Origin: Thermoplasmata archaeon
Lineage (GTDB): Archaea > Thermoplasmatota > Thermoplasmata > RBG-16-68-12
Reading direction: 5' to 3'
Length of the DNA stretch: 44,627 nt
NCBI GenBank assembly: GCA_036395115.1
Contig: DASWDU010000020.1
Coordinates: forward strand, 1 to 44,627
Numbering within the stretch: position 1 is the first letter of the stretch; every line of letters begins with the position of its first letter. The notes under the pieces are model-generated. The model was not told the DNA's origin and did not search any database. It saw only the letters and a list, made by a program, of their open reading frames with translations. Positions 20,961 through 44,627 of this stretch are shown here, in pieces. Position numbers and translations under genes: made by a program.

Positions 20961-21599
20961 CGCGAGTTCTTCGGCTCCGGACAGTCCACGTTCGACGTCA
21001 CGTCCGCGTACGGTCCGTTCGTCCTCGGCGTCAATGCGGTCGTCGTGCCGAGGTCGATCTTCCTCGACTCGAAGCTCCGGGCCGACTTCGATGCGGGCAC
21101 GTTCGTCCCGCTGACCGACGCGACCCTGTACGGCGAGGACCTCGGACAGACGAGCGTCTCGGAGAGCGTGATGAACGTCATCGCGGTGTCCCTGGCCGGC
21201 TCGGACGCGTACAACGTCCTGAGCCGGTTGCTGCGGAACGCGACGGACGTCCAGGTGTACTCGTACGTCGACCTCACCTCGTACGTCCTCCTGGCGAACC
21301 TGCCGTACGACGTCGTGCGCATCCTGCCGTGGGCCAAGGTGACGAACGGCGCGACGGGCGCGGCGCCGGACGGCATGCCGGGCTTCGCGAACGTCCTCGT
21401 GCAGCTCGGCCAGATGTTCTACGACGTCCTCGTCGCCTTGGGCACGTTCCTCGTGAACCTGGCGGAGGCGATCGTGGACTGGGGGATGAAGGCGCTCGGG
21501 GCCGTGGGGACGGATGCTGCAGAAGGTTCCTCCTCAGGCACTTCCTCCCTCGCCGCGATGCCTTTAAGACCGTCATGGACCATCGGAACGGCGGCATGA
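20961..21599 (+). pseudogene. Truncated copy 1 of an unrecognised alpha-helical protein family
   Basis: Frame opens right after a stop at 20958 with REFFGSGQSTFDVTSAYG and has no usable ATG; the first possible start is GTG 21045, inside the conserved part. It aligns over most of its length with the gene at 23802-24404, sharing PRSIFLDSKL, DATLYGEDLGQ, VYSYVDLTSYV, LPYDVVRILPWAKVT and the amphipathic helix GTFLVNLAEAIVDWGMKALG. After ALGAV the two diverge completely. The missing start and altered end suggest a truncated copy; N-terminal residues before 21045 still match copy 2 only loosely (TFDV/EFDL). Function unknown. Confidence 0.55.
21048..21508 (+). repeat. Direct repeat, copy 1 (partner at 23856-24340)
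   Basis: A coding segment shared with a second copy about 2.8 kb downstream. It begins with 31 identical bases (21048-21078 versus 23856-23886) and stays highly alike through the end, where the GTFLVNLAEAI coding segment matches at nearly every base. The middle is more diverged. This pattern suggests duplication with later gene conversion. Confidence 0.75.
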
Positions 21600-21913
21600 G
21601 GGACTACCGAAAGATCGCGGAGGATTTTGCCCTCCACCTCAAGGCGAAGTATGGCGAGAGGATTGAGCGGGTCATCTTGTTCGGGTCCGTGGCCCGCGGA
21701 GACTACCGGGAGGACTCTGACGTGGACCTGATCGTCGTGGGACGCGGCGACCGTTTGGCACTTCAGGGGGAGCTCGCCGCGGACTCCGTGCGGCTGCTCC
21801 TCGAGACGGGCGTCCTCGTCACCCCCATGGCATTCACGCAGGAAGAGATGGGACGGGTCGACCGGACGTTGTTCGGGCGCACCGTGGCCTCCGAGGGCGT
21901 TGTCCTTGCCTGA
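21596..21913 (+). CDS. MNT-type minimal nucleotidyltransferase
   Basis: A 105-aa protein of the pol-beta superfamily. It carries GSVARGDYREDSDVDLIVV, the GS-x10-DxD signature with both catalytic aspartates, and ends at TGA 21911. Starts at ATG 21596 (or 21575); a TTTAAG box at 21562-21567 sits about 30 nt ahead and supports 21596. It is directly followed by a HEPN gene with a 14-nt overlap, the usual MNT-HEPN arrangement. In characterised pairs (MntA-HepT) the MNT protein adds nucleotides to the HEPN toxin and silences it, so this would be the antitoxin. Confidence 0.9.
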   Translation: MRDYRKIAEDFALHLKAKYGERIERVILFGSVARGDYREDSDVDLIVVGRGDRLALQGELAADSVRLLLETGVLVTPMAFTQEEMGRVDRTLFGRTVASEGVVLA

Positions 21914-22283
21914 ATCCGAGGACCTCCTGAAAGCCGCCCAAGAGTCGCTCGAGGCGGCAAGGCTCCTCGCATCCCGCGGTTTTCATCCGGACGCCGTGAG
22001 CCGTGCGTACTACGCGATCGTGTACGCCGCCCGTGCCGCGCTCGCAAGCCGCGGCGTTGCCGCGAAGACCCACGGCGGGACGCTCCAACGCTTCGGAGAA
22101 CTGTTCGTCGCGCCCGGCCTCCTCTCCTCCGATCTCACCACGGCCTTCGGGAAGGCGATGGCGATTCGAAATCGGGCGGATTACTCGACGGCGGTGCGTC
22201 CCGGGAGGGAAGACTCCGAGACGGTACTCGGGGACGCCGCGCGATTTGTCGACGCCGTGACTCGCCTTCTCTCTGGGAAGTGA
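21900..22283 (+). CDS. HEPN domain protein (partner of the MNT protein)
   Basis: A 127-aa all-alpha protein with the COG1895-type core SRAYYAIVYAARAALASRG, then KTHGGTLQRFGELFV and a last helix with RNRADYSTAV. This matches HEPN proteins paired with MNT genes. In canonical ribonuclease HEPN domains, R-x4-6-H is the active site; here the pattern around RADY is not an obvious R-x4-H, so nuclease activity is open. The start is TTG 21900 (or TTG 21906). Its stop overlaps the GTG of the next small gene (GTGA). Together these form a likely toxin-antitoxin or stress module. Confidence 0.88.
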   Translation: MSLPESEDLLKAAQESLEAARLLASRGFHPDAVSRAYYAIVYAARAALASRGVAAKTHGGTLQRFGELFVAPGLLSSDLTTAFGKAMAIRNRADYSTAVRPGREDSETVLGDAARFVDAVTRLLSGK

Positions 22284-22450
22284 CCGCTGAGATGCGAGGA
22301 CGTCCCGCTTCGCCCAGCCCAACCCGAACGCGACGGACGATCGTCTCGAAGTCGCAGGGTGGCATCTTCTTGGCGTCAATCGGTTTTGCAGTAGGCGCGT
22401 TCGCATGGTACTCCGCTACCGCCTATCTTCAGCAGCATCCGCTGAGGTGA
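22280..22450 (+). CDS. Small single-helix membrane protein, coupled to the HEPN gene
   Basis: A 56-aa open frame starting GTG 22280, which overlaps the HEPN stop by 4 nt (GTGA); an ATG at 22292 is a second choice. A basic N-terminus (RGRPASPSPTRTRR) is followed by one hydrophobic helix (GGIFLASIGFAVGAFAWY). The overlap suggests translation coupled to the HEPN protein. No family recognised; below the length usually annotated automatically. Confidence 0.45.
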   Translation: MTAEMRGRPASPSPTRTRRTIVSKSQGGIFLASIGFAVGAFAWYSATAYLQQHPLR

Positions 22451-22454
22451 TGCC

Positions 22455-23125
22455 GTGGATGGGAGCGGGCGAGGGCATCGGAGCACGGCCGGGCAAGGCG
22501 AGATAATCTCCAACACGCCCGCGGTCGTCTCTTTCGGTGCCGTCGGACTCGTGTTCGCCTTTGCTGCAATCTGGGCATTCTCTCAGGGCCCTGTACGAAC
22601 GGGGAACTTCGGCGGACTCCTCCTACTATGTCGTGCTTTTTCTGCTTGCGGCGATGGCGCTTGCCCTCTTCGTCGCGGTCTTCCAATTCCCCTACTCCCT
22701 GGAGGTGTCCAGCGAAAGTTTGGAGTTGAGGTATGTTCACCGGCGGGAGGAGATACCGGCGGCCCGAATCTCGACGATTGAAGTCCGTGGTGGGGCGGTG
22801 GGCCGTAACTGTTGGATTGTGTTCGTAGACGGAGAAAGCAAGTCGATTGGATCAAGGAGCCGACGTCTGCCGGATATCTGGCGCCGTTTCCATCCACCAA
22901 TGCAGGCTCGGGGTGTCCAGAATCACTTTCAAGATCGATGACGCGGGGCATGACGTTCCCCTGTGCAACTGCCAGAACCTTGCCCGCCGAATACCCGACT
23001 CAGCCAGGCGTGCGCACTTTGCCTTCTCGAAAATGGTCCGTTGGGTGTACGGTGTCCGAGTGGTCGGGGTCGTTGGAATCATCCTCACGGTGGGGCAAGT
23101 AGTGGCCAGATGGACGGGTAATTAA
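22455..23125 (+). pseudogene. Membrane protein with beta-rich (possibly PH-like) domain, read in three frames
   Basis: Three overlapping partial frames make one plausible protein. The first (GTG 22455) holds SFGAVGLVFAFAAIWAF. The second holds YYVVLFLLAAMALALFVAVFQ and a domain ending IWRRFHPPMQAR. The third holds SRITFKIDDAGHDVP and the last helix GVRVVGVVGIILTVGQVV, ending at 23125. Removing one G from each of two GGGG runs (22596-22599 and 22911-22916) joins the three frames into about 222 aa with three membrane helices. Each join keeps the hydrophobic and beta pattern intact. Two independent one-base errors in GGGG runs are more likely assembly errors than decay, but both fit. Confidence 0.6.
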
Positions 23126-23127
23126 TC

Positions 23128-23670
23128 ATGGCGTTTTCCTATCGGGAAACCAAAGACCGAAGTCTTCGGCACCTGTTCATCGTCCTGTTGGCGGTTACGA
23201 CGGCGAGCCTTGGATATGTGCTGTTCAGACTCGTTGTCAGCGGGTTTTCTCTGGTTCTTGGCGCGCTTCTGACGGGGTTCGGGATCTTGGTCGGAGCCTT
23301 TGCTCTCGGGTTTGCATTTCAACTTGCCGAGGCCCAGGCCTTTCCCGTCCTCATTGAGGGCGACCGTCTTAGCTTCCCTCGGGCAACCATTCTCGCAGTG
23401 GTCTTGGGAAGACGCGAATGGACGCATATCAGCGATGTGAAAAGGATTGAGCTGAAACTCAACCGGATCGTTCGGACGTCGGTCCGCGATTCGCAGCTTG
23501 GAACCTCATTGGAAGATGCTCAAGTTCCGACCGACGTCGTTGTGACAACTGTGAATGGAAAGGTGTACGAGAAGCACTACAATGTCCTTCGGCGGCACCA
23601 CCGTGCGCTGGCTGCAGAGACCGCCAAAGCCCTCCTCGCCTGGGCGCCGGAAAAGGTGGTGCTGAAGTGA
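23128..23670 (+). CDS. Membrane protein with beta-rich (possibly PH-like) domain
   Basis: Unrecognised 180-aa protein. Two hydrophobic helices, LFIVLLAVTTASLGYVLF and LVLGALLTGFGILVGAFALGF, are followed by AFPVLIEGDRLSFPRATI, IELKLNRIVRTS and VVTTVNGKVYEKHYNV, then a final helix rich in Ala and Leu. It has the same order as the genes at 19354, 20506 and 22455, so these appear to be diverged relatives. The ATG comes 2 nt after the preceding stop, so it is probably cotranscribed. Confidence 0.65.
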   Translation: MAFSYRETKDRSLRHLFIVLLAVTTASLGYVLFRLVVSGFSLVLGALLTGFGILVGAFALGFAFQLAEAQAFPVLIEGDRLSFPRATILAVVLGRREWTHISDVKRIELKLNRIVRTSVRDSQLGTSLEDAQVPTDVVVTTVNGKVYEKHYNVLRRHHRALAAETAKALLAWAPEKVVLK

Positions 23671-23724
23671 TGCCTCATTCTAGCCGCCGATGATCATACA
23701 TTCGGACCGGACTGAGCGGCCCTC

Positions 23725-23805
23725 GTGTCTGTCGAAATCCGGGACATCGCAAGTCCCGATCGATTCAAGGCGGCCATCGAAGCGCTAACCATCGATGATG
23801 CATGA
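23725..23805 (+). CDS. Possible 26-aa peptide overlapping the next start codon
   Basis: GTG 23725 opens a short frame (VSVEIRDIASPDRFKAAIEA...) whose TGA overlaps the ATG of the next gene by 4 nt. It could be a leader peptide that couples translation, or the remains of a longer upstream part of that gene. Nothing else in 23671-23801 can be supported. Confidence 0.25.
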   Translation: MSVEIRDIASPDRFKAAIEALTIDDA

Positions 23806-24404
23806 CCCACTCCGAGTTCGATCTCGCATCGGAATCCAGTCCATTTGTCGTTGTCCCGAGGTCGATCTTCCTCGACTCGAAGCTCCCGAAAGACCTCGAC
23901 GCCGGGACGTTCGCGCCCCTATCCGACGCGACCCTGTACGGCGAAGACCTCGGCCAAGCGAAGGTCTCGGAGAGCGTCGCCGGGACGGTGGCGAAGTCCC
24001 TGTCCAGCGTCGAGGCGAAGAACGTCCTCGACCGCCTCCTGCAGAACGCGACGAACGTCCTCGTGTACTCGTACGTCGACGTGACGTCCTACGTCGTCCT
24101 GATGAACCTTCCCGCGGACGTCGTGAAGATCCTCCCCTGGGCCTCCGTGACGATCAGCCCGACCGGCGCGATGCCGCAGGACTTCTGGCAGAAGATCGGC
24201 GCGGCGGAGTCGGCCATTGTCAACTCTCTCGTGCAGCTCGGACAGATGATCAACGACGGACTCGTCGCCATCGGCACGTTCCTCGTCAACCTGGCGGAGG
24301 CGATCGCGGACTGGGAGATGAAGGCGCTCGGGGCCGTGTGGAACACGGTCGTCGCCGTCGCGCAGCCGGCAGCCCACGTTGTGCAGCACCTGGCCTCCCG
24401 CTAG
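23802..24404 (+). CDS. Unrecognised alpha-helical protein, copy 2
   Basis: A 200-aa protein that starts MTHSEFDLASESSPFVV and then follows copy 1 (20961-21599): PRSIFLDSKLPKDLDAG, DATLYGEDLGQ, VYSYVDVTSYVVLMNLPADV, and a long amphipathic helix LVQLGQMINDGLVAIGTFLVNLAE ending near DWEMKALG. This segment is too weakly hydrophobic for a normal membrane helix but could lie on a membrane. GC content is as high as the host's, unlike the membrane-protein genes around it. No domain recognised. The ATG is at the 4-nt overlap with a possible upstream peptide. Confidence 0.65.
   Translation: MTHSEFDLASESSPFVVVPRSIFLDSKLPKDLDAGTFAPLSDATLYGEDLGQAKVSESVAGTVAKSLSSVEAKNVLDRLLQNATNVLVYSYVDVTSYVVLMNLPADVVKILPWASVTISPTGAMPQDFWQKIGAAESAIVNSLVQLGQMINDGLVAIGTFLVNLAEAIADWEMKALGAVWNTVVAVAQPAAHVVQHLASR
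23856..24340 (+). repeat. Direct repeat, copy 2 (partner at 21048-21508)
   Basis: Second copy of the coding repeat; identical over its first 31 bases and highly alike near its end. Confidence 0.75.
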
Positions 24405-36940: not shown

Positions 36941-37651
36941 TCAACGAATCAATCGGATGATCGCGCCTGCGCCGGCCGTCACCGTGGCGATCGGTTGAAG
37001 GAGAATCCACCCAAGATCGCCGCCTCCGTAGAAGAATAGGACGGGCATAGAAAACACGAAGCTCAATCCGCTTCCGACGAGGGCGAAGTAGAGCGTCCCC
37101 GCGGCAAGGAGGCGACCCTCCGGCCTCGGCCGGAGGAGGGCGACTCCGAAGAGGAGAACCAGCGCGAAGCAAAATGCCGTGAAGAATGCGAAAATGCTGA
37201 CGAATAATGCCAGACGCGATCCGACGAGGCCGATCGCAGCTCCCGCGCAGATGAGGAGGGCACCGAAGCGATTGCGGTCGATGAGTTTCGTCCCGGCAAG
37301 TTCCGCTTCCGTCAGACGGCCAATCCCGGACCCGATGAGTGAGACTGTCATACCGACTACTCCCGCGGTGCCCAAGAGGACGGCGAGGTCTCCGATAAGG
37401 AACGGGCTGCCGAGAAGCCATATGATCCAGAGACTCGACATCCCTCCCAAGAACGCGAAACAGAGGCTCGCCGTGGCGAGGGATTGGCTTCGATGCCACC
37501 CTCCGACCGTCAGCAGCCCGAACAGCAAGACGAGAGCGAAGCACACGGCGGCTAAGAGCGCAGGCGCAAACAGGTAGAACGGAACGGACCCCGCGAGCCC
37601 AAGAAGGGCGCCGAGACAGGTCAAGCCTCCGGGAATTCGGGCGGGATTCAC
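36941..37651 (-). CDS. Multi-helix membrane protein with an internal repeat
   Basis: Unrecognised protein of 236 aa with about eight hydrophobic segments. Two halves look alike: LLAAVCFALVLLFGLLTVGGW and FFTAFCFALVLLFGVALL share a FALVLLFG core. The second half follows a soluble linker (GRLTEAELAGTKLIDRNRFG). The open frame begins at ATG 37702, but that would overlap the synthetase end; GTG 37651 begins VNPARIPGG and leaves a 13-nt gap, and is preferred. Base use is less GC-rich than the synthetase. Substrate unknown. Confidence 0.65.
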   Translation of the reverse strand: MNPARIPGGLTCLGALLGLAGSVPFYLFAPALLAAVCFALVLLFGLLTVGGWHRSQSLATASLCFAFLGGMSSLWIIWLLGSPFLIGDLAVLLGTAGVVGMTVSLIGSGIGRLTEAELAGTKLIDRNRFGALLICAGAAIGLVGSRLALFVSIFAFFTAFCFALVLLFGVALLRPRPEGRLLAAGTLYFALVGSGLSFVFSMPVLFFYGGGDLGWILLQPIATVTAGAGAIIRLIR

Positions 37652-37664
37652 GTGAATCCTCAGA

Positions 37665-39974
37665 TCACGCGAGTCGATGCATTCGACGCAGGTCCCCTTC
37701 AAAAGCCTTCAGTTCGTACGGGACGACGACCCCGGAGAGTTCCGTATTGAGCGGCAGGCCCTGGTCCCGCTTCTTTCTCCATACCTCGGCGTTGAAAGAC
37801 ACAATCCCATCCGTGAAGTCCGCGCGCGACGCCGGGATGCCGTCCCGAGGCATGGGGAAGCGCTCCGCGTGGATGCCGCCTCCGTACACGGCGCGCCAGA
37901 TCTTGTCCGTGGAGAACGGCACGATCGGGGCGAGGAGCCGCAGCAGATCCCGGAGGCAGGCGTGGAGCGTCCACCGCGCCCCCGTGTCGCCCTCGTAGGC
38001 GCGGGCCTTCACCATCTCGACGTAGTGCGGCGCGAACAGATTCCAGACGAAGTCCCGACATCGGTTCGACGGGAGGAAAAGGTTCAGGTCTTCGTACGCG
38101 CCGCGGCAGGTCTCGACGAGGCGGTTCATCTCGGCGAGGATCCACTCGTCCGTGGGCTGGAGTTTCCCCGCCTCCGGCTCATCGAAGGAGGAGATGAACC
38201 GTGCGACGTTCCAGAGTTTCGTGACGAACTTCGCGGCGCCGCCGATCTTCGCCTCGCTGACGTTGAAGTCCTCCCCCGGATTCGTCTCGCCCGCGACGAA
38301 GGCCCGGATCGCGTCCGCGCCGTACTTCCGGATCAGGGGCCACGGGTCGATGACGTTGCCGAGGGTGCGGTGCATCGCGCGACCGCGGGCGTCGAGGCCG
38401 AGGCCGTGGATGAACACCCGATGGAACGGCTTCGAGCGGCGGACGACCCATGATTTGAGCGTCGTATAGTACAGCCACGTCCGGACGATCTCGCGGCCTT
38501 GCGGCCGCAAGGAGACGGGAAACGTCGCTGCGAAGAAGGCCTCGTCTTTGCCGTATCGGGTGAGGAAGAGGTTCGAAACGCTGGAGTCCATCCACGTGTC
38601 GAAGACGCGGTCCTCCCCGATGAACTCCTTCCCACCGCACTTCGGGCACTCGTCGAACGGAGCAGGGTCCTTCCACGGACGGTAGTACTTTCCCGGCGGC
38701 GGCGCGAGCGTCTCGCCGCACGCCTTGCAGTACCACAACGGGATCTCCGTGTGGTAGTACCGCCGTCGGGAGATCGGCCAGTCGATCGTCAGGCTGTCCA
38801 TCCAATCCAAGAGGAGCTGCCGATGGCGCGTCGGCCGGAACTCCATCTCGTGCGCGAGGCGCCTCAGGTCGTCGCGGAACTCGAGCTGCTTCATGTACCA
38901 CGCGTCCGAGGAGATGAACTCGATCGGGTTCAGGGAGCGCGAGCATGTCGGCGTCATGTGCTGGATCGGTTCGACCTTCTCCAGCGAGTCCGCGGCGCGG
39001 AGTTCCTCGATCGCCTTCTTGCGCGCGGCCTCGACCTTCAGGCCCTTCAGCGAGCCGGCGGCCGGCGTCATGCGGCCGGACTCGTCGATCGCCTTGACCG
39101 GCTCGAGGCGCAGCTCGCGGAACAGCGCGAGGTCGACCATGTCGCCGTACGAGCAGATCATCGCGGCGCCGCTGCCGAACTCCGGCTTGGCCATCGCGTG
39201 CGGGACGATCGGCACCTCGTGGCCGTAGAGCGGCACACGAGCCCGTTTCCCATGGAGGCCCGCGAAACGCGCGTCGTCAGGATGGACGATGATCGCCCGG
39301 CATGCGGCGAGCAGCTCCGGCCGCGTCGTGGCGATTTGGATCTCCCCGCCCGACGTCAGCGGGAACCGCATCGTCACGAGGCTCGACGGCCGCTCCTCGT
39401 ACTCGATGTCCGCTTCGGCGAGGGGCGTCTCGCACACGGGGCACCAGAAGGTCGGCCGCTCGCCGCGGTAGAAGAGCCCTTTCGGCCAGAGCTCGAGGAA
39501 GATCGACTGGCTGTACGCGCGGTACTCGTCGGAGTCCGTGTAGTACGTGTGCGCGAAGTCCGCGGACATCCCGACGCGCGTCGCGAGCTCGAGCAATCCG
39601 TTTCCGATCTCCTCGATTTCCTTGCGGCACTCCGCGATGAACGCCTCGCGGTCCCATTTGTGGAGCGGCTTGCCGGTCTTCTTCTCGACCGTGCGCTCGA
39701 TGTTGATCCCGTTCCGGTCGAGGCCGAACGGGAACAGGACGGCGCGTCCGAACATGCGCTGCGCGCGGGCGATCATGTCGATCAGGGAATACGCCATCAC
39801 GGCGCCGACGTGCCAGGAGCCGCTCGGATACGGCGGCGGCGTGTCGATCACGTAGATCGGCTGGCCGGGCTGGGGGTCGAAGCGATACGAGTCCGGCTCC
39901 CGTCTCCAGAGGTCGAGGACTTCTTCCTCGATGGAAGGCTCCCACGCTTTCTCCGGGAGTTTCGCGTCGGCCAT
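37665..39974 (-). CDS. valS: Valyl-tRNA synthetase-like class I aminoacyl-tRNA synthetase with altered KMSKS loop
   Basis: A 769-aa class I synthetase. HIGH motif: TPPPYPSGSWHVGAV (H55 to A58). Editing domain has IATTRPELLAA. Val-type core elements are present: YYTDSDEYR, FWCPVCETPLAEADIEYEE, FDTWMDSSVSNLF, WPISRRRYYHTEIP and a zinc site CKACGE ... CPKCGG. Where KMSKS is expected (before LGNVIDP, about residue 532-536) it reads AMHRT, with both lysines missing. It also lacks the C-terminal coiled coil seen in many bacterial ValS. A TTTTATG box centred about 31 nt upstream supports a near-leaderless ATG at 39974 and not the longer frame from 40046. Either it works with a variant loop or is a paralogue. 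Confidence 0.83.
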   Translation of the reverse strand: MADAKLPEKAWEPSIEEEVLDLWRREPDSYRFDPQPGQPIYVIDTPPPYPSGSWHVGAVMAYSLIDMIARAQRMFGRAVLFPFGLDRNGINIERTVEKKTGKPLHKWDREAFIAECRKEIEEIGNGLLELATRVGMSADFAHTYYTDSDEYRAYSQSIFLELWPKGLFYRGERPTFWCPVCETPLAEADIEYEERPSSLVTMRFPLTSGGEIQIATTRPELLAACRAIIVHPDDARFAGLHGKRARVPLYGHEVPIVPHAMAKPEFGSGAAMICSYGDMVDLALFRELRLEPVKAIDESGRMTPAAGSLKGLKVEAARKKAIEELRAADSLEKVEPIQHMTPTCSRSLNPIEFISSDAWYMKQLEFRDDLRRLAHEMEFRPTRHRQLLLDWMDSLTIDWPISRRRYYHTEIPLWYCKACGETLAPPPGKYYRPWKDPAPFDECPKCGGKEFIGEDRVFDTWMDSSVSNLFLTRYGKDEAFFAATFPVSLRPQGREIVRTWLYYTTLKSWVVRRSKPFHRVFIHGLGLDARGRAMHRTLGNVIDPWPLIRKYGADAIRAFVAGETNPGEDFNVSEAKIGGAAKFVTKLWNVARFISSFDEPEAGKLQPTDEWILAEMNRLVETCRGAYEDLNLFLPSNRCRDFVWNLFAPHYVEMVKARAYEGDTGARWTLHACLRDLLRLLAPIVPFSTDKIWRAVYGGGIHAERFPMPRDGIPASRADFTDGIVSFNAEVWRKKRDQGLPLNTELSGVVVPYELKAFEGDLRRMHRLA

Positions 39975-40002
39975 GCGCGTCTCGGCGGACAGCCCCGGAG
40001 GC

Positions 40003-40010
40003 CATAAAAG
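40003..40010 (-). promoter_or_regulatory. Archaeal box A for valS
   Basis: On the minus strand CTTTTATG, about 31 nt before the ATG at 39974; supports that start and a very short leader. Confidence 0.5.
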
Positions 40011-40075
40011 GATTGTTTCGGGGGCGACGCGAGTTGTTTCGCACACCCCACCGGAAGCCTGAGGACCTCCGTCGA

Positions 40076-40097
40076 TATACCTCTACTTAGAGGTATA
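40076..40097. repeat. Perfect 22-bp palindrome, copy 1
   Basis: TATACCTCTA-CT-TAGAGGTATA: two perfect 10-bp arms around a 2-bp centre. It ends 4 nt before the ATG of the small gene at 40102. The minus strand of its right end reads TTTATACC, a good box A. A related copy lies at 40351-40372. Its form is that of a site for a dimeric DNA-binding protein. Confidence 0.8.
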
Positions 40098-40101
40098 AAC
40101 G

Positions 40102-40365
40102 ATGGAAATCGGATGCGGCGCGCGGGTCCGCGACTTCGACGGGCGGCGGTACTTCTACTTCTGGCACTACGAGCGGACGAACGGTCGGTCGGCGCGCCAC
40201 GAGGACTACGTCGGCCGCGTCGGATCGGATCGGGCGAAGCAGGAGCTGCTCCGCCGGATCGCGGCCTACCATCGGCGGGTCGAGCAAGAATTCGCGCGGC
40301 GCCGGGCCAAGATCGAGCAGGCCATCGCATCCGCGACCGCGGACGGGCGGCATACCGACACTTAG
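40102..40365 (+). CDS. Small basic protein lying between two palindromes
   Basis: Unrecognised 87-aa protein. A short aromatic, beta-like N-terminal part (GRRYFYFWHYERTNGRSA) with YVGRVGS is followed by a long basic helix (ELLRRIAAYHRRVEQEFARR...). Such a beta-hairpin plus Arg-rich helix fits a DNA- or RNA-binding protein, for example the N-terminal arm of an integrase-like protein, but no family can be named. The ATG at 40102 comes 4 nt after palindrome copy 1 and the TAG stop (40363-40365) lies within copy 2. Its own promoter is not clear, because the TATA in the palindrome is too close to the ATG. Confidence 0.5.
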   Translation: MEIGCGARVRDFDGRRYFYFWHYERTNGRSARHEDYVGRVGSDRAKQELLRRIAAYHRRVEQEFARRRAKIEQAIASATADGRHTDT

Positions 40366-40372
40366 AGGTATA
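40351..40372. repeat. 22-bp palindrome, copy 2 (imperfect)
   Basis: Matches copy 1 at 18 of 22 positions; the right 13 bases (ACTTAGAGGTATA) are identical. It overlaps the stop codon of the small gene at 40102-40365. Centre-to-centre distance to copy 1 is 275 bp. Confidence 0.7.
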
Positions 40373-40401
40373 TTCCCGCGGCGGCCTTCCCGAATCGCGG
40401 G

Positions 40402-43341
40402 TCACTCGATGTACCGCAGCGCCTCGGCGGGCGGGATGCGGGACGCGCGGATGGCCGGCTGCGCGGTGCACGCGACCGCCGCGACGGCCGTTCCCCCGAT
40501 GATCACGAGCAGGTGCAGCCACGGGACGCTGAAGACGATGATGTCCGCGAAGTACACGACGTAGATCTTGTACGCGAAGACGATCCCCAGTGCCACACCG
40601 ATCCCGACGCCCAGCACGGCGATGAGCGCGATCTCGACGAGGAACATGGACAGCACCATCCGTTGCGTGAAGCCGATCGCCCGCAGGGCGCCGATCTGCG
40701 TGCGCCGCTCGACGACCGCGCGGAGCGTGATGACGGCCAGGCCGGCGATCCCGACGAGCAGCCCCATCGCCAGGTACGCCTCCATGAGCGTGAGGACCTG
40801 CTGCGACGCGTCGAACGCCTGGCCGATCGCCTCGCGGATGTCGATCGTCTGGAGCCCGTATCCGAAAAATGTCCGTTCGAGGTCCGCGCGGAAGCCGGCG
40901 ACGTCGGCCCCGGCCGCCATCTGGAAGAAGTACGCCGTGTACCGTTCCTCGACGGGGAACACGGCCCGGACGACGCCCTGGTCCACGAAGACGCCGGAGG
41001 TGAACTGCAGCGCCTGCTCGAGCACGCCGACGATCGTCAGGTTGACGCCGCGTCCCGCTGCGTCGAAGGCGCGGATGCGGTCCCCCGGGACGACGCGGAG
41101 GCGTCCCTCGTCCGGGGCGAACTGATTTGGCCCGGCCGCGCTCCGGTCGACGATCGCGAGGCTGCGGTTGTTCCGGAGGGAGAGCCAGACGTCCTGCCGG
41201 GTCGCCAGCGGCACGATCCGTCCGTCCGTCTCGTTGACGTACGACGGCAGGAAGCTGTAGAATCCGTACTGGTTGCTCTGGACGAGGAAGTTGTCGACGC
41301 CCCATAGAGTGTAATCGTACGAGCCGTTCCCGCCGATCGCCTGCACGCGCGCGGGCAGGACGCTCGCGCTCGCGGTGCCGTTCCAACCGCCGGCGAAGAG
41401 CGCCTCACTGAAGTTCGCCTCGAGCCGTTGCCGGAAGTCCGGGATCTCGCCGTACGATGTCGTGTACGCGATCACGTCGTATCCGCCGGACTGCTGCTGC
41501 ACGAACGTGTCGAGGCTCGACTCCTGCAGCCCCTGGATCATCGAGATGAGCGTGACCATGAAGAGGATGAGCGAGAACATCGCGACCGTCATCCCGGTCC
41601 GGAAGCGCTTCTCCATCGGATACGAGATTGCCGTCCGGAGGACGGGCCGTCCCGTGCTCCGGTTCGCCCGCCAGAGCAACGCCCGCAGGAGCTCGCTCAC
41701 GTTGAACACGGCGATCAGGATCCCCGACCCGACGAGGATGAGGCCCGTCATCACGAAGGCGATCGAGACGCTGTCCGTCGCTTCGTTGAGGAGGCCGACG
41801 GGCATCAGGATCCACACGAGGTTGAAGACGGATGCCAGGGTGAGGGCGGGACGTGCCCATCCCCGCGACGATGCGGCGACCCCCAAGCCGATGGCGAGGA
41901 CCGGTGGGCCGGGGATCTTGCCCATGCCCGTGTTCGCCGCGAAGCCCCAGGCCGTCAGGAGGGCGCCGCCGACCGCCACGAGCGCGCCGACGATCGCGAC
42001 CTCGCGCGACCGCTCCCGCGTCCCGGGTTCCGGCAAGTCGCGGATCGCCCGGACGATGTTCAGCCGGCTCACGCGCCACGACGCGAGGAGAATCGTCGCC
42101 CACGTCAAGGTGGCGCCCGCGACGAACGCCGTGACGACCGACGCGGGATCGAAGTGGAACGTCACGACGACGTCGCCGTGGGGCACGACCTTGTCGAAGA
42201 AGTACACCATCACGTAGCCGAGGCCCAGGCCCGCCAGGGCGCCGAGCGCCGCCGCGACGACGGCGTAGAAGGTCCCCTCGAGGGCGAACGCGGCCAAGAG
42301 GTCCCGCCGCAGGAAGCCGACCGCCCGCGTGATGCCGAGCTCCGGCTTCCGCTCCTCCGCAAGCATGACGAAGATGTTCACGATCAGCAGGACGCCCGCC
42401 AGGATGCCGAACGCGCCCATGACGAGGAACAGCTCCGTCGCGTCGCGGCCGACGCGCACCGCCTGGGCGACGTCGACCGCCTTCACCTCGCGTACGTTGA
42501 GGAAGAACAGCTGGAGTTCCGCGATGCTCAGGCGGAGGTCGTGCGTCACCCGGGCCGAGAGCGCTGCGCCGTCCGCGACGCCGCCGACGTTCGACACGCG
42601 GATGAGGTTGACCATTCCGGTCTCGTTGAACGCCGCTTGGGCCTGCCGGAGGTCCATGAACAGAATCGGGTCCCGCTCGTACGTCGCCTTGCCCTCGTCT
42701 CGCAGGATGTCCGCAACGATCACGTGGACGAGAGTCTGGTTCGTGGTGCCGTAGAAGAGCGTAAGGTCCTGCCCGGCCGTCGCGTTCAGGTCCGCCGCGG
42801 CGCGGCTGTTCGCGTAGACTTCCCCGGTCGCGAGATCGTCGACGTCGACGGACCGCCCGCCCGTCGTCGTGAGCCGCCCGAACGCGGCCTCGTGCGTCGC
42901 GTTCAGGCCCATGACGGTGATCTGCTGGTTGCCCTTGTTGCCCGCCACGTTCCGCACGGGCATCGTCTTGAGGAGCGCCGGCGCGAGTCCGTCGATCGGC
43001 GTGGACCGGACCGCGAGTTTGGTCGCGATCTGCGTGTAGTTCGCCTCGGGGAACGAGAACAGCTGTCCGTTGAATTCGTTCGAGACGAGTTCGTCCACCG
43101 CGCCCAACCGGACGTAGACGTCCTCGAGGAAGATGTAGCTCAGCGTGTCCCCGACGACGAGGCTCGAGGAGATGATCGCGGTCCCGACGAGCAAGCCGGC
43201 GACGACGATCGTCACGCGCGACTTGCGCCGTCCGATGTTCCGCACCGCGAGCCGCGCGAGCAGCGGCCGCAGACCGATGACGACGCCGAGGAGGACGAGG
43301 CCCGAGAGGATCGCGAGGACGGACGCGTCCGGGAGGGCCAC
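40402..43341 (-). CDS. ABC transporter permease with two FtsX-like domains (MacB/LolCE type)
   Basis: A 979-aa permease. It starts with two N-terminal helices (VLAILSGLVLLGVVIGL and VTIVVAGLLVGTAIISSSLVV), then a large extracytoplasmic domain and three helices (GAFGILAGVLLIVNIFVML, YAVVAAALGALAGLGLGYVM, VVTAFVAGATLTWATILLAS). Several more helices follow, then MTVAMFSLILFMVTLISMI, a second large extracytoplasmic domain and the last three helices with the FtsX ending RASRIPPAEALRYIE. This is two FtsX units in one chain. GTG 43341 sits 4 nt after the ATPase stop and is preferred over TTG 43371, which would overlap it. With the ATPase it makes a mechanotransmission-type transporter, probably for lipids, lipoproteins or peptides. 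Confidence 0.88.
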   Translation of the reverse strand: MALPDASVLAILSGLVLLGVVIGLRPLLARLAVRNIGRRKSRVTIVVAGLLVGTAIISSSLVVGDTLSYIFLEDVYVRLGAVDELVSNEFNGQLFSFPEANYTQIATKLAVRSTPIDGLAPALLKTMPVRNVAGNKGNQQITVMGLNATHEAAFGRLTTTGGRSVDVDDLATGEVYANSRAAADLNATAGQDLTLFYGTTNQTLVHVIVADILRDEGKATYERDPILFMDLRQAQAAFNETGMVNLIRVSNVGGVADGAALSARVTHDLRLSIAELQLFFLNVREVKAVDVAQAVRVGRDATELFLVMGAFGILAGVLLIVNIFVMLAEERKPELGITRAVGFLRRDLLAAFALEGTFYAVVAAALGALAGLGLGYVMVYFFDKVVPHGDVVVTFHFDPASVVTAFVAGATLTWATILLASWRVSRLNIVRAIRDLPEPGTRERSREVAIVGALVAVGGALLTAWGFAANTGMGKIPGPPVLAIGLGVAASSRGWARPALTLASVFNLVWILMPVGLLNEATDSVSIAFVMTGLILVGSGILIAVFNVSELLRALLWRANRSTGRPVLRTAISYPMEKRFRTGMTVAMFSLILFMVTLISMIQGLQESSLDTFVQQQSGGYDVIAYTTSYGEIPDFRQRLEANFSEALFAGGWNGTASASVLPARVQAIGGNGSYDYTLWGVDNFLVQSNQYGFYSFLPSYVNETDGRIVPLATRQDVWLSLRNNRSLAIVDRSAAGPNQFAPDEGRLRVVPGDRIRAFDAAGRGVNLTIVGVLEQALQFTSGVFVDQGVVRAVFPVEERYTAYFFQMAAGADVAGFRADLERTFFGYGLQTIDIREAIGQAFDASQQVLTLMEAYLAMGLLVGIAGLAVITLRAVVERRTQIGALRAIGFTQRMVLSMFLVEIALIAVLGVGIGVALGIVFAYKIYVVYFADIIVFSVPWLHLLVIIGGTAVAAVACTAQPAIRASRIPPAEALRYIE

Positions 43342-43345
43342 GGCC

Positions 43346-44041
43346 TCACGCCCCCCGCGCCTCGTCGACAACCTGCCCGTTCCGCATGCGGAGGATGCGG
43401 TGGGCGCGCGAGCTCACGGTCGAGTCGTGCGTCACGACGACGAGCGTCTGCCCTTGCCCGCGGTTCAGCCGTACGAGGAGGTCCATGATCTGCGCGGACG
43501 TCTCCGAGTCGAGATTCCCCGTCGGTTCGTCCGCCCAGACGATCGCGGGGTCGTTCACGAGCGCGCGGGCGATCGCGACGCGCTGCTGCTGTCCCGCGCT
43601 GAGCTGCGCGGGCTTGTGGTCCGCCCAGCCGTCCAGCTCGACATCCTCGAGGATCGCGAGCGCCTTCCGCCGGGCTTCACGCGCGGGGGCCCTCGCCACG
43701 AGGAGCGGCAGCTCGACGTTCTCCACGGACGTCAGGACCGGGAGGAGGTTGTATGACTGGAACACGAAGCCCATCCGGCGGGATCGGTAGCGGCTCTTCG
43801 CGTCGTCGTTCATCGCCGCGAGCGACACGCCTTCGATGCGCACGTCGCCCGACGTCACGTCGTCGAGGCCCGAGAAGCAGTTCAGGAGGGTCGTCTTGCC
43901 GCAGCCCGACGGCCCCATGATTGCGACCATCTCACCGCGTGCGATCGCGAGGTTCACGCCGCGCAAGGCGTGGACGTTCACGGCACCGGAGTTGTAGATC
44001 TTGTGAACATCGACCGCGCGGATGATCGCGTCGTCCGCCAT
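43346..44041 (-). CDS. ABC transporter ATP-binding protein (MacB/LolD family)
   Basis: A 231-aa ATPase with Walker A GPSGCGKTT (43-51), a Q-loop FVFQSYNLLPVLT, signature LSAGQQQR (Ala in place of the usual Gly at the third place), and Walker B VWADEPTGNLD. 'GFVFQSYNLLP' and 'DEPTGNLDS' place it in the LolD/MacB group, which powers FtsX-like permeases, the type encoded next. It would sit on the cytoplasmic side of the permease. A CTAAATAC box at 44067-44074 on this strand lies about 29 nt before the ATG, so the transcript is probably leaderless. Confidence 0.95.
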   Translation of the reverse strand: MADDAIIRAVDVHKIYNSGAVNVHALRGVNLAIARGEMVAIMGPSGCGKTTLLNCFSGLDDVTSGDVRIEGVSLAAMNDDAKSRYRSRRMGFVFQSYNLLPVLTSVENVELPLLVARAPAREARRKALAILEDVELDGWADHKPAQLSAGQQQRVAIARALVNDPAIVWADEPTGNLDSETSAQIMDLLVRLNRGQGQTLVVVTHDSTVSSRAHRILRMRNGQVVDEARGA

Positions 44042-44066
44042 GCGCGCGCTTTCGATGAAAGGCGGC

Positions 44067-44074
44067 GTATTTAG
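44067..44074 (-). promoter_or_regulatory. Archaeal box A for the ABC transporter operon
   Basis: On the minus strand CTAAATAC, centred about 29 nt before the ATG at 44041. Confidence 0.5.
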
Positions 44075-44095
44075 CGTTTCGTTACGACGCGGTCC

Positions 44096-44627
44096 CTACT
44101 CCGGCCGCGCGGCGAAGAAGTTCAGCCGCCACGTGTCCACGATGCCGGCCTCCGTCGTGAGGGGCCTGAGCCGCTCCGCGAGGTCCGCGTCGAAGGCCGT
44201 CCGGTCCGCCGGCGACATCTCATGCAACTCGCGTTCGTACCAGCCGTACGACGCTCCAAAGGCGACGAGGTCGTCGACGCGGCCGAATCGCACGGGGAAG
44301 TCCTTCGACGTCGCCTCCCGGTGCTCGAAGCCCGCAGTGGCGAGGGCCTTGAGGACCGCGTTCGGATCGCCGAGCGCCTTCGCCTCCGGATCCGTCCGGA
44401 CGAGGCGCACCGCTTCCCTCACCGAGGCGAGGTCCTTCGACGGGGCCCGCGTGCCGTGCGTATCGAGGAGTTCCCGCAGCGCCGCGAAGGACGGATTCGG
44501 ATCTGTCGGCCACTCGCTGAAGACGAACCGGCCGGTCGGCTTGAGGACCCGATGGACCTCCTGGAAGACGCGGTCGTACCCGAGGGCCGGGATCCCGAGG
44601 TTGCTCGCGGCTCCGTCGAACAGCTTG
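44096..44627 (-). CDS. SAM-dependent class I methyltransferase, C-terminal part (5' truncated)
   Basis: The frame runs to the right edge and continues outside. The end seen here has DRVFQEVHRVLKPTGRFVFSEW, the post-strand-4 'VLKPGG' element of class I methyltransferases of the UbiE/Methyltransf_11 kind, then a variable region (DDLVAFGASYGWYERELHE) and the last strand WRLNFFAARPE. The SAM-binding glycine loop is outside the window. The internal GTG at 44422 is not the start. Substrate unknown. Confidence 0.85.
   Translation of the reverse strand, partial: KLFDGAASNLGIPALGYDRVFQEVHRVLKPTGRFVFSEWPTDPNPSFAALRELLDTHGTRAPSKDLASVREAVRLVRTDPEAKALGDPNAVLKALATAGFEHREATSKDFPVRFGRVDDLVAFGASYGWYERELHEMSPADRTAFDADLAERLRPLTTEAGIVDTWRLNFFAARPE

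Follow-up and report, generated by a model that had tools for sequence, protein, structure and literature searches.

An undescribed family of small archaeal proteins, each apparently reading a palindrome beside its own gene

The window analysed here, a 44,627-nt stretch of DNA that is contig C20 of a 2.40-Mb genome in 50 contigs, carries a small gene between two copies of a palindrome (Table 1). Judging from related genomes, this gene very probably encodes a small sequence-specific protein, most likely a dimer, that binds the flanking palindrome and represses its own gene, the palindromes being its operators. Comparison shows a protein family, private palindromes, co-distribution of proteins and sites, conservation of sites amid diverged flanks, and covariation between residue and base. 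Together with the predicted fold, these make a good case for an autoregulated DNA-binding protein, which was one of the readings offered in a preliminary description of this DNA. Such proteins are a known general kind; the family and its set of sites at gene 3' ends are new.

We propose that the 87-aa protein would recognise the palindrome as a dimer, reading two 9-bp half-sites around a 4-bp centre. Its three-stranded beta sheet would contact the DNA, and its long helix probably pairs the two subunits. A dimer seated on palindrome 1, which lies in the leader shortly before the start codon, would repress transcription of its own gene in negative feedback. The same protein would have further sites at palindrome 2 and at the gene-free copies found elsewhere in the genome. 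An operator-like site is, by its position, present in the gene's own leader at palindrome 1; from the comparisons below we infer dimerisation, direct binding and the sign of the autoregulation.

Table 1. Features around the palindrome-flanked gene, in window coordinates, and solo sites of a sister subfamily elsewhere in the genome
Feature	Position	Strand	Basis or remark
Class I aminoacyl-tRNA synthetase, LeuRS-like, divergent neighbour	37665..39974	-	own TATA-like CTTTTATGG
Promoter-like conserved stretch, approximate left limit of the cassette	40031..40075	+	subfamily consensus; edge of G013 homology
Palindrome 1, TATACCTCTACTTAGAGGTATA	40076-40097	.	proposed operator in the gene's leader
Gene for 87-aa putative DNA-binding protein, subfamily A of an undescribed family	40102..40365	+	ORF, homology, predicted fold
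Palindrome 2, CATACCGACACTTAGAGGTATA	40351-40372	.	degenerate copy, 18/22, spans the gene's stop TAG
FtsX-type ABC permease gene, convergent neighbour	40402..43341	-	gene finder and domain match
TTAACCTTNNNNAAGGTTAA sites L099-L103	G000:C23:38781, C30:47202, C31:19184, C31:28191, C47:35412

A small gene between two palindromes

The preliminary description had noted a perfect palindrome ending 4 nt before the gene, a second copy over the stop with 18 of 22 positions kept and 275 bp away from centre to centre, and an Arg-rich 87-aa product. All three points are borne out, with the proviso that perfection applies to the 10-bp arms of palindrome 1, the 2-bp centre CT being asymmetric. Written as a 9-4-9 site, palindrome 1 is TATACCTCT-ACTT-AGAGGTATA with 9/9 pairs, and the spacer AACG separates it from the ATG at 40102. 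Arginine makes up 17 of the 87 residues (counted by eye). The right half of palindrome 2, ACTTAGAGGTATA, is intact, and its left arm is damaged (3 arm mismatches of 14). Seen from the convergent permease gene, palindrome 2 lies 29 nt past the stop codon. Neighbouring genes were called with a simple codon-usage gene finder written for this analysis, and the divergent neighbour is presumably leuS. The left limit at 40031 is approximate because it was transferred from the edge of homology between two copies of the unit in genome G013.

No match to the palindrome at up to 3 mismatches arose in 100 dinucleotide shuffles of the window. Further copies do exist in the genome: six places at the same threshold in 2.4 Mb, against none in the whole genome for the pattern read backwards. 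The palindrome-gene-palindrome arrangement is far above chance and is one case of a wider pattern. Palindrome 2 is weak evidence alone because of its damaged left arm; what makes it convincing is that the copy over the stop recurs in 30 of the 39 subfamily A members with at most 1 arm mismatch, and in 34 with at most 3. It is absent from the remaining five and near-perfect in most relatives. Palindrome 1 stands at the matching position, with at most 1 arm mismatch, in 36/39. The C-terminal residues of the subfamily A protein (HTST and similar) are mere translation of palindrome 2.

The motif GAGGT within palindrome 1 may double as a ribosome-binding site. As RNA, palindrome 1 folds into a hairpin of -10 kcal/mol (z -4.1) that would cover GAGGT, which makes a translational component of control possible. 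The early suggestion that the palindrome creates a minus-strand box A found no support: leuS has its own conserved TATA-like element roughly 30 nt upstream of its start, the palindrome's outer TA varies (CATACC, CGTACC and GTTACC occur), and the sister palindromes GTTAACCTT and TCTACCTCT are not TATA-like.

A protein family found in a single order

A tblastn-type search found nine paralogues of the 87-aa protein in its own genome. Matches occurred in 28 of the 100 genomes searched, and a profile search gave the identical tally: the genome itself, 21/21 of the same genus or family and 6/15 from other families of the order, against 0/63 in the rest of the class Thermoplasmata. Within the genomes searched, the family to which these sequence matches point is therefore confined to one Thermoplasmata order. 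This order, RBG-16-68-12, is Ca. Angelarchaeales according to the available portion of PMC9038741; in that portion, term matching found no mention of regulators, palindromes or transcription factors. The named relatives with the family are Thermoplasmata MAGs from soil and sediment.

Members share the signature MxxGCG...YxYFWxYE...YVG, which the window protein fits. Among 18 aligned representatives including the window protein, M1, G4, C5, G6, Y17, Y19, F20, W21, Y36 and G38 are invariant. For M1 this carries the reservation that non-ATG starts were written as M, or else are found in other members. Neither the 87-aa protein nor the representatives reached the cut-off of any Pfam or NCBIfam profile, and PHROGs and PDB sequences gave weak matches far below any cut-off. 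The best subthreshold matches were to a PHROG (E 0.0058) and a Pfam family (E 0.0061), each with 1/18 members. Searches of phages, plasmids and viral contigs, with one protein or one peptide pattern each, returned no relative, and the literature searched held no paper on the family. A likeness to GIY-YIG nucleases, seen by eye, was dropped since no further nuclease elements follow the helix. We suggest that these archaeal proteins form an undescribed DNA-binding family, each member apparently reading a palindrome beside its own gene. In genome G024, one member (C23:31495-32696) appears split after residue 22 by roughly 970 bp, as two partial profile matches, perhaps by an insertion sequence.

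Private palindromes and sister subfamilies

Gene and palindrome go together in relatives, as the preliminary description had proposed to check, and the palindrome is not absent beside homologous genes. A 9-4-9 dyad with at least 7/9 pairs lies within 75 nt of the start in 91 of 97 distinct members; the other six have no clear dyad near the start. Both the sequence of the dyad and its spacing to the start are subfamily-specific, the spacing being 2-4 nt in subfamily A, 13-15 nt in most others and 27-38 nt in one type. Arms read TATACCTCT in A and TCTACCTCT in B, and GTTAACCTT, GTTACCCTT, GTTATAGTT, GTTATCGTT, GTTATCTAT, GTTATCACC and others in further subfamilies. Some subfamilies besides A also have a second dyad copy behind the gene. 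The site TACCTCTNNNNAGAGGTA occurs in 16/16 genomes of the genus including our own, with 1-14 per genome among the matches listed, and in 0/9 genomes from other families of the order. With a candidate site beside each gene, the sites of a whole diverged family could be read from sequence. One divergent paralogue, L043 (G000:C49:25206-25439), has a weaker dyad (6/9 pairs) whose copies flank the gene on both sides.

One sister subfamily adjoins moaD-moaE at 12 loci. In the genome studied here, G000, its palindrome recurs as five solo sites, mainly in promoter regions (Table 1). They include one upstream of moaB-moeA, one before a ThiS-ThiF-rhodanese gene and one at an isopropylmalate-dehydrogenase-like gene, the last named by eye. 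These five sites likely form the regulon of the paralogue beside moaD-moaE. At least three lie, by eye, upstream of TATA-like boxes and are therefore probably not transcribed. Other subfamilies adjoin queC, a cysteine synthase gene and a KaiC-like gene (QueC was checked, the others were named by eye). The sister subfamilies act as ordinary regulators would; subfamily A differs from them in having gene-free sites behind genes. The family thus predicts regulons in uncultivated soil Thermoplasmata, for example that of a molybdenum-cofactor regulator.

Predicted fold and candidate recognition code

AlphaFold2 modelled the 87-aa protein with a mean pLDDT of 92, as strands at residues 5-12, 15-26 and 29-39 followed by a helix at 43-81. 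The structural neighbour ranked first was the DNA-recognition region of PI-SceI (Z 6.7; 2.0 A over 59 aa), and others were an AP2 domain (Z 5.5) and the HPI integrase arm domain (Z 3.8); all matches stay below Z 8, a range that the tool calls common, and unrelated rows score alike. Foldseek with the predicted structure gave no match at E<=0.001, its matches having E>=0.25. The model is suggestive of a fold akin to the DNA-binding sheets of PI-SceI, AP2 and integrase arm domains.

Covariation between protein and site was scored by mutual information on 25 clusters at 70% identity that represent 90/97 members, one truncated and six low-dyad members being left out. Residue 32 and arm position 8 were the strongest pair tested (z 10.2; 0/1000 permutations as high, with kinship ignored). 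Arg32 goes with C at arm position 8 (G opposite) in A, B and L044, Gln32 with T (A opposite) in most other clusters, and Ala32 with A in L195/L030. The G024 cluster breaks the rule (Arg32 with A), and the L029/L031 cluster is mixed. Arginine with guanine and glutamine with adenine are the usual residue-base pairings. Across these sequences, residue 32 and position 8 covary as R/G and Q/A contacts would. This candidate recognition code, in which other positions are less clear, is testable without screening. The paralogue L043, outside the tested set, combines Lys32 with a C in arm position 8 (judged by eye), which fits the code.

Subfamily A sites behind genes

Among the matches listed, solo sites of subfamily A occupy at least about 47 places, of which 44 were fetched; 41 could be classified and three could not. 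A gene 3' end lies 15-50 nt from 32 of the 41 (78%), compared with 13% of intergenic control positions. Their setting is convergent in 19, tandem in 18 and divergent in four cases, against 11/42/47% in the control. Grouped by independent place, 10/17 have the 3'-end position; the other seven comprise two scars where a gene once stood (L046, L122), four places with B-type centres and one true exception (L105).

One example is the site behind endA, found 22-38 nt past the gene end in 17/18 congeners and in 0/10 genomes outside the genus. Its arms are 97% and 89% identical, compared with 33% for the 20 nt on each side and 82% for the last 60 nt of the gene. Different species have different genes downstream of endA, while the site stays. 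At orthologous sites the centre is AAGT or ACTT, as a symmetric dimer reading the arms would lead one to expect. A second conserved place has the site in 9/14 congeners and in 0/12 genomes outside the genus. As far as comparison can show, the 3'-end sites are real binding sites under selection. At one orthologous 3'-end place the centre is A-type in L074, L084 and L111 and B-type in L109 and L119, and the A and B proteins may therefore share or trade sites.

These positions raise the idea, doubtful though it is the likeliest role for the sites, that, besides autoregulation, the subfamily A protein halts RNA polymerase arriving from either direction when it sits 20-45 nt downstream of a stop codon, as a terminator or insulator. 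At its own gene, a roadblock at palindromes 1 and 2 would limit and end its own transcript, adding to the autoregulation proposed above. The concentration of solo sites near gene 3' ends, also by independent place, and the persistence of the endA site amid diverged flanks and beside differing downstream genes agree with this. The absence of T>=4 tracts, found at 0/53 site-bearing gene ends and 12/96 others, points weakly the same way, though T tracts are generally rare and the gene ends in the comparison are not independent of one another. Against it, a genome has only a handful of sites, and the second conserved place keeps its site in only 9 of 14 congeners. Moreover, the 3'-end positions could be tolerated after insertion of the palindrome-flanked unit and kept for another reason, such as chromosome structure. 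Archaeal transcription is known to end through FttA/aCPSF1 and U tracts, according to the available part of PMC8716108, and the genus-wide endA site raises the question whether site-specific DNA-bound proteins end it as well.

Sites in the leader and behind stop codons would also suit a palindrome acting in RNA, where the leader hairpin, with GAGGT in its stem, masks the ribosome site, 3' hairpins stabilise or process transcripts, and the protein binds RNA. The stability of the leader hairpin is in its favour, but we consider this very unlikely. Solo sites of a sister subfamily ahead of the TATA-like boxes in divergent promoters, and the strand-indifferent centre of orthologous sites, speak for DNA. 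In addition, the most frequent variant of palindrome 2 disrupts the innermost base pair on the sense strand, the predicted fold resembles DNA-binding sheets, and Rfam had no match in window positions 37000-44627.

We give scarcely any credence to a role of palindrome and protein in chromosome maintenance or partition, as proposed early on; no evidence for it emerged. A few conserved sites scattered over each genome, together with a single small DNA-binding protein, would fit it, but the surveyed subfamily A places share no ATPase partner (neighbours judged by eye), the sites track gene 3' ends, and every paralogue has its own sites.

Gain and loss of the cassette

Promoter, palindrome, gene and palindrome form a cassette of about 0.32 kb. 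Genome G013 holds two near-identical copies with unrelated flanks, which share 324 alignment columns, starting about 46 bp upstream of palindrome 1 and ending immediately after palindrome 2. At the new G013 place, 14 congeners have no palindrome in 330 nt (by eye); the flanks have diverged, and no clean empty site with target duplication was found for this event.

At three places surveyed, relatives hold the gene, a solo palindrome or nothing. At the leuS place, eight of the 12 congeners for which this neighbourhood was available have the gene, two a solo palindrome and one nothing, and one is N-masked. At the radical-SAM place, the gene is intact in six congeners and truncated in one. Our own genome keeps a solo palindrome with the promoter motif there; the others have one decayed solo, one decayed gene and two times nothing, and in one the contig breaks off. 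The transporter place carries the gene in five congeners and, in five more, a solo at a different position and mostly reversed; two have nothing there, and one is cut off. Outside the genus, the tallies for the leuS, radical-SAM and transporter places are 0/8, 0/4 and 0/6 readable ones, respectively. In G002, a solo with the stop-side signature occupies the start-side position, the result expected of a deletion from one palindrome to the other. In the decayed gene upstream of the radical-SAM gene (L243, in G012), which has an internal deletion, both palindromes are decayed; here the palindromes erode together with the gene.

It is possible, if on balance doubtful, that the unit is a miniature mobile element first and foremost, copying as a cassette to new places with the solos as its footprints. 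The G013 duplicate, absent as a palindrome from 14 congeners, the varying occupancy of the three places, the solo beside a kept promoter motif in our genome and the G002 solo all fit. The preliminary suggestion of a miniature mobile unit stands to that extent: duplication into unrelated flanks and losses that leave one palindrome did occur. It falls short in that no transposition function was recognised in the unit and, in the gene tree, the copies cluster by place, which indicates mostly vertical inheritance. No recombinase, target duplication, or viral, phage or plasmid relative was seen, other subfamilies sit in stable contexts, and the endA solo sites are conserved like functional sites, not scars. 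None of the known catalytic family profiles is matched by the 87-aa protein, and the cassette ends may be acted on in trans.

A combination of mobility and termination seems unlikely: the cassette would spread a self-limiting protein with its sites, and gene loss would leave palindromes that, occupied by protein from the remaining copies, act as bidirectional roadblock terminators or insulators between genes and then come under selection. If true, it would be a sequence-specific, protein-dependent archaeal terminator built by domestication of a mini-element.

Comparison with known systems

The predicted fold, a three-stranded antiparallel sheet packed on a helix, is suggestive of AP2 domains, the arm-type domains of tyrosine integrases and the PI-SceI recognition region. 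No sequence relation to these was found (Pfam, NCBIfam, PDB, PHROGs), and family members differ in being free-standing proteins of 75-87 aa with a long helix and a 9-4-9 site, outside any integrase or homing endonuclease. Small autoregulated repressors likewise have a palindrome in the promoter or leader of their own gene and a few sites elsewhere. Here, in contrast, one genome has nine paralogues, each with its own diverged palindrome, and one subfamily has sites at gene 3' ends.

RAYT/REP and other mini-elements combine a small gene flanked by palindromes with solo palindromes elsewhere, as the subfamily A unit does. Unlike them, this unit matches no nuclease or transposase family, has palindromes in direct repeat and few copies, and is mostly inherited in place. 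TTF-I is a roadblock terminator of eukaryotes. So is Reb1, as the available text of PMC10310618 describes it. By analogy, both are DNA-bound at gene 3' ends as the subfamily A protein might be, but they are eukaryotic, large and unrelated to the 87-aa protein, for which termination is hypothetical.

Elsewhere in the window (21045-24404), a nucleotidyltransferase and HEPN-like pair (by eye) lies between two reading frames that resemble each other (VVPRSIFLDSKL...), and is possibly a toxin-antitoxin module inside a duplication.
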